This document shows, in pieces, positions 19,066-32,759 of a DNA stretch of 64,000 nucleotides. The stretch is taken from positions 39,748,668-39,812,667 of the forward strand of contig NC_089981.1 of the NCBI RefSeq assembly GCF_036417845.1, read 5' to 3'. Source of the DNA: Apteryx mantelli. Lineage: Eukaryota > Chordata > Aves > Apterygiformes > Apterygidae. The notes under the pieces are model-generated. The model was not told where the DNA came from, ran no database searches, and was given only the letters and a program-made list of their open reading frames with translations. The position numbers were made by a program, and so were the translations under genes. Position 1 is the stretch's first letter, and every line of letters begins with the position of its first letter.

Positions 19066-19186
19066 GAATGACGATACAAAGAATTTCAGAGCCCAGCTAC
19101 TAGTTCTCAACTCAACCAAATCTTATACAAATTTCTCAAATCATAGCAACTTTTCGATACTGGGGACATTTGTGTGTCCTTGAACT
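19066..19186 (+). pseudogene. Relic of catalase-copy exon 2 (tentative)
   Basis: One frame reads RAQLLVLNS where CAT exon 2 reads RGPLLVQDV. It continues with YTNFSNHSN opposite FTDEMAHFD, then an Ile and a Val in register with the real exon. The essential His segment is not recognisable. It is weak alone and accepted mainly because it precedes the exon 3 relic on the same strand. Confidence 0.4.
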
Positions 19187-19595
19187 GAATTTTGAATAGG
19201 AATACTTCCTGTGGTGTTTTTTTTCTTTTAAGTGTGAATTGGCCTTCCAAGAAGTGAAGGCAGATAGATAAAGAAGAGTTGGTATTAAGTGTTGTTCCAT
19301 TAAGTGGAAGCATTGTAGAAAGCTGCTTCTACTCAAACTCATTTATCTGTTAATCTGTTGTGAAAAATTGACATGCTGTGTGATAGATGCAGTAAAATAA
19401 TATAAAATGATAGTCTGCTTTACTGTGGATTTTTACCTGATCAGGCTAGTAGGAGCAGCTGAAAGAGCCACATAAATGGGTAGGAATACTTCTTGCTAGA
19501 ACATAGAATCCTAATAACTCTTGGAAAAGAATAAGCCAGACTTGTTCTTTAATTTTGGTGGTTTCTGCTAAATATTGTCTTGCTTCTATTTCTGA

Positions 19596-19601
19596 AATAA
19601 A
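19596..19601 (+). promoter_or_regulatory. Candidate distal CAT polyadenylation signal
   Basis: AATAAA followed about 25-60 nt later by a strongly GT-rich stretch (tgtctgttttgtttttgtg), a good match to a poly(A) signal plus downstream element. If used by CAT, the 3' UTR would be about 2.3 kb and would run through the relic catalase exon 2 described at 19066. Use of the site is not shown by the sequence. Confidence 0.35.
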
Positions 19602-19685
19602 GAACTAAATTTAAAAACCTCTTGGCTGCGTATTGTCTGTTTTGTTTTTGTGAGCATGTGTTTTCAAAGAGGTTATTCAATCTAG

Positions 19686-19785
19686 ATGATTCATACCTTC
19701 AGCTGTGTTTTGGAAATTGTGCAAAAGCTGTTCAAGTTTTGGGGAAGTAGATGCTATTTCAGAAATCAGTTATTTGGACTGCCAA
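19686..19785 (+). pseudogene. Relic of catalase-copy exon 3
   Basis: One frame reads SYLQLCFGNCAKAVQVLGK opposite GYFEVT...[13 protein letters not shown] of CAT, with small in-frame deletions. A TAG stop follows directly, and the end (tggactgcc then aagg) resembles the CAT exon end tccactgtc with its gtaagg donor. It is in the expected position between the exon 2 and exon 4 relics. Confidence 0.55.
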
Positions 19786-21198
19786 GGACTAAATTCTGCT
19801 CAGCTCTGATTTGTCAAATTACCTGTTAGGCTCCTCTGTCAGTGATTTGTAAGCCTTTGGGGAAAAGGAAGGCTACTCAGATCTGTAGTAAAACAGTGCC
19901 TATAATTGTGTGCGCTGCATGAACGGGAAAAAATTGCTGTCCCACTTTACTGTGGCTTTTGTTGATTATGCCTTGCTTAAGTCTCTATTTGTTGAAGAAC
20001 CTTTTGTTATTTTTCATCTAAAATCCTCAGTCGTGATTTACAGAATTGTTGTGAGACTATTGAGGCCATTCAGTTTTTCAGAGTTCACTTACATTCTAAG
20101 GAAGGAGAGTTATTTTTAGTAGTTTTATTTTCAACTTTGCATATTTTGTTAAACACTTGAAATATGTCCCAAAGGTACTACATAGCCTTTCAAAAGGCTG
20201 TCAGTACAGAGATTTATTCTACTGTTTGTATTACACAAATGTTTAGTTCAGTTTAACTCTGTTATTTATAAACTGCTTTTCTTAAATTGCAGTCATTTAC
20301 TTTTTTTCCCGAATCACTACTTTTTACTTCATATGCAAGGAACTGTGGCATAGCCAGGTAAAAACCACTGGGAGAATGATGATTACTAGTAAATGTGGTA
20401 GTTTAGAGTAGAGCTTGGGCTAATATTTGGATGGTGGCACTCAGATTGGAGAGTCAAGCACTAGGTGATGAGGAAGAGTGAGGAAACATCTTATGCAGTA
20501 ATACTGAAAAGACATGTAGACTGCAGCTACCTTTATTTTGAAAACTCACAATTTCAACACGGTTTTGCTTAAAAGCCTGACCTCTGTTCTGTGCTCCAAA
20601 CTGACTGTGACAGGCATTACAAAGTAAAACTATGCTCATGCAAAAGATGGAGTTAGGCCACACTGGAAGAACAGTAATCTTATTTGTTCAAAAAAGATAA
20701 ATCTGTGTTACAGCTACTTTGAGAATAAAAATGCTGTTTATGTGACATGGCATAATCTCACTTGTATACGTAGACTGTATTCTGCTCAAGTCAAATCAAA
20801 TACTCTTATGATATGTGGCTGCTGTATATTTTTCAGTTATGTGTTAAGAAGGATTGCTCAGCTGCTTCCTATAATCCTTTTAAGGTAGGTATCCATCTCT
20901 AATAATGGAACTAGGAATGAATTTGAAACTTATGTTTTGGAAATTACTCAACAGCTGCTGTAGGACTATCTCTCCTTGTGGGTCCTTCCTGTTTATTTCT
21001 TGGTAGATTTTTTTTTTTTTCCCTTCCCCTCTTCCAGAATCTTTGGACTTGAATAGCTACAGAACATAGCAGATTCCAGTAATTCAGTGTGTATCCGTTC
21101 AAATGGGCTGTAGCAGGAGATGAGCAAGTCTGTGGAATTACTACATCATCTCCAGAGAAAGGTGAGGTTTGGATCTGATAGTTACCTCTTTAGGGCTT

Positions 21199-21213
21199 CC
21201 CCCCCCCCCCCCC
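21199..21213. repeat. C homopolymer run
   Basis: Fifteen consecutive C bases between relic catalase exons 3 and 4. Its length is a likely sequencing or assembly uncertainty. Confidence 0.9.
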
Positions 21214-21344
21214 AGTCTACCTGAATTCCTTTCCTGAATCCAGTCACCTCACTGCCTGGTGAAAAGCATAGCTGGAAATTGTCTATTAAGCAGTGTGTAG
21301 GTGTCCCTAACCAGCATCCATAAAATCAGTCATGTTGGGTGGAG

Positions 21345-30983: not shown

Positions 30984-31073
30984 AGCGTATAAAGATCTTG
31001 CAAACTGAAAGAAGAATTAATTCTAAGCTCTATAGTAGGAACACGTGTGAAAACTTTATGATCCTTCAAGGTT
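30984..31073 (+). pseudogene. Relic of catalase-copy exon 11 (tentative)
   Basis: A strong acceptor (cttctccttttattacattttag) precedes an open segment reading IKILQTERRINSKL, which can be laid against [14 protein letters not shown] of CAT. The rest matches weakly (NFMILQ opposite QLFIQ). It is supported by position between the exon 10 and exon 12 relics. Confidence 0.4.
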
Positions 31074-31170
31074 CTGGGTTTTTGGTAGAGACCCAAGCTG
31101 TGCCTAAGCACGTCTACTTTAGCTCAAGTGTAGCCTCTGCTGGAGTATTCCAGTATTGCAGATCATCAGC

Positions 31171-31220
31171 TTTTTTTTTTTTTTGAATATTTTTGAATAT
31201 TTTTTGAATATTTTTGAATA
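31171..31220. repeat. T run followed by four gaatattttt units
   Basis: A run of T (31171-31184) followed by tandem copies of the decamer gaatattttt (one copy has an extra T). It lies just after the relic catalase exon 11 segment and is not coding. Confidence 0.9.
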
Positions 31221-32184
31221 GCTGTTTAGATTATGAAAAGAGGAATTGTGCTTTTGTGGAAAAAATGATCTCACTAGAATATGAGTATAAACTGAGAATA
31301 GAATGATCAGCACAATGCAAAATAACTCCAAATATGGTTATTCTACCTATTTTCAGTTTTGTGGAAAGAAGGATTCTTCATTTCTGATGTCATGCTGGTT
31401 ATCACACCACGTCTTGCTCACAGATGTAGCCTAGGAGCTGTACTTTATGGGTTGCAGAATGTAATAGAGGTAAAGCACTTTCTGATTTTTTTTTTACAGA
31501 TGTGGATGGAAATAGCCTCTTCACATATCCGGAAATGTGTTGAAGTGCATGGAGACCTCCGAGGAAATCTGTAGAAGCTGCATGTTTGAAGGCATGAAGT
31601 GGATGCTGTTTTGTACTGGTAAGCCTCTCACCACTCTTCTTTTGCGTTGCTGCTTTCCCGGGGATGAGAGAACAAATGGGAATGTTGGACTTCATGCTTA
31701 TAAGCATCTTCTGAAAAAGAGCCCACATGGGTGAAGAGCATGGAAGCTGTGATTACTACTGAGCTTTCAAGAGCAGCCACAGGTTGTGTGTACAGTGCAG
31801 GTGGCAAGGGGAGCTGAGTGCCTTTAGTCCTGGAAATATTCAATGGCAGCAATATGGAGCTCAGTGTAAGCAAACTTATCCTGTTGAGAAATAGTATGGG
31901 CAGGTTTTCATTTTCTCCTTCTTCCCTCATTGCAAGTGCTTGTGCAAAAGTCCATTCAATTTGCTGAAGACCAAGGTATGAAAACCAAGACTTAAAGAAA
32001 ACCAAGAATTGAAACTGCCTGTGGTTTCATTATCTGATCAGCTGGACTGGCATGATGCTGGCCACCCCTCTCCTTTACTGGATCTGGCATATAGCATAGA
32101 GGGCTTGGGATGGAAGAATAGCCAAGAAGGTATCTGGAGCTGAGAAATGAAATTCCTGTCTATTCTAGTGCTTTACCACTTCAG

Positions 32185-32260
32185 ATGAAAACTTCTGTCC
32201 TATTCACCAGACCTGTATTCAAGCTCTTTGGGATAAAAAGTGCTGTAGAGGCTGCCTAAG
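32185..32260 (+). pseudogene. Relic of catalase-copy exon 12
   Basis: Clear. The acceptor (ttaccacttcag) is retained. The start atgaaaact aligns with gtgaaaaact, and IHQTCIQALWDK aligns with [15 protein letters not shown] with two codons deleted. A frameshift separates the start from the CIQAL block. The block cctgtattca is identical in CAT exon 12. Confidence 0.87.
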
Positions 32261-32697
32261 GGTGCCCCTAGAGGGGGCATTTTCCCACTTTCACAGGATT
32301 TTACTGGATAAAAACCCTATCTTGTTCTGAGACTTTTCCCTTTAGTGATTATGTTTTGTTTAGATAAGAAGAAATTAGTACTTAGAGAACTGACAGTGTG
32401 AGATTGTCACTCTAACTTCAGTATTCAGTCCAAATTAAATCTTGCTTAAAAAGACTTGATTTTAAGTTTAATATTCTAGAAGGTGACATGCATATTCACA
32501 AAGGCTATAGTTAGGTTATAGCCTTGCTTACTAAAATTAAATCAAAAGAAAGGAAATAATGTTCCTGATAGGGTTTTACTTTGTATTTAATGAGGACTAG
32601 TGTAGTGTGGAATAAGTATTAAGAAATGTCTTTTAAAATAATCCTTCCTAATTCTTCTCCTGTAACTTAGTTTAGAGATGAATTCACTTTATTTTAT

Positions 32698-32759
32698 GAT
32701 GCAATTAGAATGTGCACATTTTGCACCTTGTGTCTGCAAGAGATCGGGCTAACCTTTCA
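32698..32759 (+). pseudogene. Relic of catalase-copy exon 13, lost stop
   Basis: Clear. It begins gatgcaattaga opposite gatgtaattagg of CAT (DAIR versus DVIR). After a frameshift it reads HLVSARDRANL opposite [11 protein letters not shown]. The former acceptor AG reads AT (ttttat), and the stop codon TAA has become TCA. The -ANL ending matches the usual vertebrate catalase terminus more closely than the -SNL of the live gene does. Confidence 0.88.

Follow-up and report, generated by a model that had tools for sequence, protein, structure and literature searches.

A decayed tandem copy of the catalase gene CAT, duplicated with its introns, in the genome of the kiwi Apteryx mantelli

The kiwi Apteryx mantelli carries a decayed second catalase in tandem behind CAT, copied at the DNA level together with its introns, a conclusion that is strongly supported by the comparisons described here. 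All coordinates refer to the window, by which we mean the whole stretch of 64,000 nucleotides analysed (contig NC_089981.1, positions 39,748,668 to 39,812,667 of the forward strand). The segment from about 23.55 to 32.93 kb is very probably a duplicated (unprocessed) CAT pseudogene. A local genomic duplication produced a tandem copy of CAT with its introns and 3' UTR, which then lost its function and, in what remains of it, has drifted; the copy most likely both arose and died before crown birds. No report of a tandem catalase relic in birds was found in the full-text catalase or kiwi-genome literature searched. This agrees with the suggestion of the earlier note on this DNA that such a relic is unreported, as far as the full-text catalase literature goes, most subscription journals and genome browsers lying outside that scope. 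In the same full-text literature, no paper could be recognised from its title or the opening of its abstract as dealing with a second vertebrate catalase, and passages of PMC6986871 hold nothing on one.

The relic and its parent gene

The parent copy is intact. The window opens within CAT intron 1, exon 1 preceding it, and exons 2 to 13 with their introns occupy 5113-17287 on the plus strand, where they encode an intact 506-residue frame. Splice sites are canonical throughout, with AG at 12/12 acceptors and GT at 11/11 donors. The encoded protein is identical to Apteryx mantelli catalase P0017 at 464/464 aligned residues, and the remainder is a single 42-residue exon that was skipped in the P0017 prediction. 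On the far side of the relic, two ETS-domain exons of a neighbouring gene, which we take from its sequence to be ELF5, lie on the minus strand at 37220-38092 (tblastn with an ETS-domain query, E 4e-35 and 4e-17).

Each of the 12 CAT exons served as a single-sequence nhmmer model in a search of both strands of the 46.7 kb downstream of CAT. Plus-strand matches to exons 2, 4, 7, 8, 9, 12 and 13 fall in gene order between 23.56 and 32.76 kb, and the other matches downstream are weaker and scattered, reaching E 5. The best collinear chain reaches 113.2 bits, of which sub-threshold links to exons 3 and 10 contribute 1.3 bits each. None of 200 dinucleotide shuffles of 20 kb approached this score (maximum 24.1 bits), the minus strand gave 13.0 bits, and a distant 20-kb stretch gave 18.5 and 17.5. 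It had been proposed that the idea of a relic would fail if only exons 8 and 9 matched or if the order were broken; seven exons in order were found instead. A chance resemblance might be argued from single exons that are weak alone, such as exons 4 and 12 (E 0.039 and 0.33), but the shuffles refute this reading, which we regard as scarcely credible, and the descent of the relic from CAT stands beyond chance.

All parts of the relic lie on the plus strand. Exon 2 is found at 23561-23742 (core 23573-23673; nhmmer E 3.2e-6; 105/166 bases identical), exon 4 at 24798-24911 (core 24821-24908; 73/111 identical) and exon 7 at 26032-26215 (core 26110-26172; E 4.1e-6; 110/178 identical). Exon 8, at 26419-26548, has suffered internal deletions, and is matched both by nhmmer (26420-26522, E 1.6e-4; 92/128 identical) and by tblastn (E 1.5e-4). 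Exon 9 lies at 29001-29124 (nhmmer 29041-29120, E 8.8e-6; 82/123 identical). Exon 12, at 32185-32250 (nhmmer 32206-32248; 49/66 identical), was equalled by none of 200 shuffles, the E value quoted above for it coming from a search with this exon alone across 46.7 kb. Exon 13, at 32698-32759 (nhmmer 32698-32755, E 0.018; 43/62 identical), was likewise equalled by 0/200 shuffles, and its translation ends in ...ARDRANL. Aligned base by base, the seven exons are each covered over most of their length, with indels and an identity of 62-74%; these alignments are global and their identities stand without a shuffle control.

Several of these segments had been noticed before. The earlier note assigned stretches at 26419, 28995, 32185 and 32698 to CAT exons 8, 9, 12 and 13, in order and on the same strand as CAT, and the searches bear this out, with the exon 9 segment beginning at about 28995-29001. 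Its weaker matches to exons 2-7, 10 and 11 hold for exons 2, 4 and 7 only, as exons 3, 5, 6, 10 and 11 do not rise above shuffles of their expected intervals, the real score being attained by 13, 200, 200, 10 and 200 of 200 shuffles, respectively. The best plus-strand match to exon 6 (28914-28982, E 0.71) is out of gene order. The exon 3 missing from the relic is presumably the one that encodes the catalytic histidine of catalase. The proposed start of the relic at 19066 is unsupported, and the relic begins near 23.55 kb, some 4.5 kb later. With 1000-base pieces of window 1-19500 as queries and a threshold of E 0.05, nothing CAT-like was detected from 17.4 to 23.55 kb, and a tblastn search ahead of the relic found no remnant of exon 1, which encodes 22 residues (best E 0.62).

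Three minor features were noted along the way. A short TTTTTGAATA tandem array of 4 copies of 10 bases is located at 31179-31220, within the relic interval. On the minus strand, 31930-31743 weakly matches CAT intron 2 (5491-5699) at E 0.02, a match that may be fortuitous or may reflect an old repeat common to both places. A 22-base minus-strand match to exon 9 at 58843-58864 (blastn E 0.002, nhmmer E 2.2) was dismissed as chance.

Mode of copying, decay and age

Introns were copied along with the exons. The 3' part of intron 11 (32002-32167, plus strand) matches with 17.0 bits in the absence of any exon, part of intron 12 (32368-32453, plus strand) matches with 1.8 bits against a shuffle maximum of -1.1, and the 3' UTR (32815-32931, plus strand) matches with 6.7 bits; each was equalled by 0/200 shuffles. 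The spacing of the last two exons is also similar, the start of exon 13 following that of exon 12 by 557 bases in CAT and by 513 in the relic. When exon 9 is searched with its flanks, the match extends into both introns (28927-29171, E 5.7e-9), and joining the end of intron 8 to exon 9 lengthens the exon 9 match; searched alone in the relic, the final 300 bases of this intron gave no match. The pieces of introns 11 and 12 and of the 3' UTR show the relic to be a genomic tandem copy that included the 3' end of the gene, as had been proposed in preference to retroposition. A processed retrocopy of CAT mRNA would account for the exon matches and for nothing further. It is refuted by relic exons that lie kilobases apart and by the matching introns, and is thus highly improbable.

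The reading frame of the relic is disabled, with 4 stops among the 245 readable codons that map to CAT and with frameshifting indels, and its residues equal those of kiwi CAT at 101/241 positions. Splice acceptors retain AG at exons 2, 7 and 12 and have lost it at exons 8 and 13. With 7 of the 12 tested exons recognisable, and with stops, indels and lost splice sites, the relic should make no catalase, and as far as can be read from the DNA it shows no sign of enzyme production at present. In a gene pair under selection, changes are expected mostly at codon position 3. The relic differs from CAT at 87/254, 84/254 and 92/254 first, second and third codon positions, and in the confident segments at 42/176, 56/176 and 61/171 (chi-square p 0.05). 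The slight excess at position 3 fits the silent changes of the live CAT, and since change is not quite even across the codon positions, a spell of constraint before the death of the relic is possible.

To estimate the age of the relic, decay of the live exons was simulated and the mutated sequences were scored just as the relic had been, with 25 runs per level. Mean scores were 345, 187.6, 103.3 and 18.8 bits at 0.4, 0.5, 0.6 and 0.8 substitutions per site, and the seven observed relic exons, which sum to 110.6 bits, correspond to about 0.5-0.6 substitutions per site. Should deletion account for the five missing exons, the value would lie closer to 0.5. Jukes-Cantor (JC) distances between relic and CAT are 0.58 for intron 12, 0.57 for intron 11, 0.43 for exon 12 and 0.39 for exon 13. 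Neutral rates in birds are 1-2e-9 per site per year. At these rates, a divergence of about 0.5-0.6 would place the relic at well over 150 million years, before crown birds, an estimate built on a simple simulation, a guessed indel rate and an assumed substitution rate. The relic thus probably died before modern birds arose, and its divergence leads us to infer that it should be present in other birds, and probably in crocodilians too.

In kept introns, decay and an adjacent parent gene, the relic resembles other duplicated (unprocessed) pseudogenes, although at the assumed rates it would be unusually old for one still readable by the exons of its parent. It is otherwise an ordinary dead tandem duplicate, and it gains interest from its likely age and from the live second catalases that other tetrapods have. 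Were it shared across birds, it would mark the old loss, on the way to birds, of a second enzyme that removes hydrogen peroxide, and would anchor the tangled history of vertebrate catalases.

Place among vertebrate catalases

The closest comparison is with vertebrate CAT itself, a typical catalase (PF00199 and PF06628). The relic matches it in order over seven exons, pieces of introns and the 3' UTR, and the last relic exon reads toward -ANL, compared with the -SNL or -ANL ends of many CAT proteins. The relic differs in its broken frame, its lost splice sites and the five exons that were not found. Second catalases, annotated as catalase-like, also occur in frogs, a salamander, a caecilian and squamates, among the best 120 of 7997 matches that each protein search returned. 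As the lists hold the best 120 of 7997, the absence from them of second catalases of turtles, crocodilians and birds proves nothing. The amphibian (for example P0079, P0064, P0115) and squamate (P0038, P0041) proteins are intact, unlike the relic, to which the amphibian sequences are the poorest match. In Hyla sarda, Rhinoderma darwinii and Rhinatrema bivittatum, the contigs that bear CAT and the second copy have identical lengths, so that the two genes very probably share one chromosome.

Trees and comparisons were based on 66 of 128 proteins, hand-picked for taxon spread, and the window CAT, giving 67 rows; Leptobrachium was omitted from the IQ-TREE tree and the placement tests. The two tree methods conflict over the amphibian second copies. 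According to FastTree, these 18 sequences form a single clade (0.67) next to sauropsid CAT, whereas IQ-TREE joins all amphibian copies together weakly (61) and the squamate copies to squamate CAT (96). The two copies were also compared exon by exon across two Podarcis species (P0016 for CAT, P0038 for the catalase-like protein). In exon 2, the second copy shares 47/57 residues with lizard CAT and 47/57 with turtle CAT, while lizard and turtle CAT have 56/57 in common. In exon 7 the corresponding figures for the second copy are 60/64 with lizard CAT and 54/64 with turtle CAT, and in exon 12 they are 27/29 and 23/29. This pattern suggests an old pair in which the 3' exons have undergone gene conversion, and so cautions against taking catalase trees as dates.

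The relic was placed at 19 attachment points with either 145 confident residues or 240 residues. With 145 residues, kiwi CAT was best, turtle fell 1.7 log units lower, the sauropsid stem 2.5 lower and the frog second copies 5.2 under the best. The AU test rejected 0/19 placements at 0.05 (lowest p 0.057), and c-ELW excluded 3/19, namely the crown of birds, the frog second copies and the caecilian second copies. With 240 residues, the 19 placements differed by no more than 1.6 log units and the AU test rejected Anolis R4GCJ7 only (p 0.048). At 56 informative sites, with the relic mapped via kiwi CAT, matches were highest for turtle (30.0) and birds (28.4), followed by mammals (26.1), amphibian CAT (21.8), fish (20.5), squamates (20.3) and amphibian second copies (15.0). 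The low scores of squamates and amphibian second copies are partly due to their missing tail. Leaving out exon 13 (38 sites) gave 21.0 for turtle, 19.6 for mammals, 19.2 for birds, 17.3 for fish, 17.2 for squamates, 17.0 for amphibian CAT and 13.8 for amphibian second copies. In direct tblastn of the 67 proteins to the relic, frog CAT ranked first (165.6 bits) and kiwi CAT fifth (154.3), with no clade order. The relic's lean toward sauropsid CAT in its sequence is thus weak, and because likelihood placement, informative sites and tblastn ranking disagree, no orthology is claimed.

Two histories of the duplication can be weighed against these results. We lean slightly toward a duplication limited to the lineage of sauropsids or of birds, which would have arisen independently of the amphibian and squamate second catalases. 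The lead of turtle and bird CAT at the 56 informative sites, and of kiwi CAT, turtle and the sauropsid stem in the 145-residue placement, would be expected from such an event. The mapping, however, ran through kiwi CAT, mammals equal birds once exon 13 is removed, direct tblastn puts frog CAT proteins ahead of kiwi CAT, and the large divergence of the relic sits uneasily with this history. A more tentative reading makes the relic the archosaur orthologue of the second copy of an ancestral tetrapod tandem CAT pair, a copy that amphibians and squamates would have kept alive as catalase-like. The great age of the relic, the living second catalases, the chromosomal pairing in three amphibians and the exon pattern of Podarcis would all fit, yet amphibian second copies score worst at the informative sites with and without exon 13, frog second copies fall 5.2 log units below the best in the 145-residue placement, and IQ-TREE groups the squamate copies with squamate CAT and the amphibian copies together only weakly. 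The fuller story, in which amphibians and squamates would have kept an early tetrapod catalase pair, partly homogenised by gene conversion, while the bird line lost its second copy over 150 million years ago, leaving the kiwi fossil between CAT and ELF5, is conceivable but stays on the doubtful side. The earlier suggestion that the relic is the remnant of an old vertebrate paralogue is thus upheld as to great age, which the simulation favours, but not as to membership of a named clade, given that the amphibian catalase-like proteins are its poorest match and that the AU test rejects 0-1/19 placements. The relic offers a way to test whether a single gene, its history masked by gene conversion, underlies the second catalases of amphibians, squamates and birds.

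The live second catalases also differ from CAT at their C-terminal end. The last three residues of CAT (-SNL or -ANL), which we take to be peroxisome-targeting, are absent from 16/16 amphibian second catalases, for example P0079, P0064, P0076, P0092 and P0115, and several squamate second catalases likewise lack them. Either the last exon has been mispredicted or, to judge from the protein sequences, these tail-less enzymes may reside outside peroxisomes.
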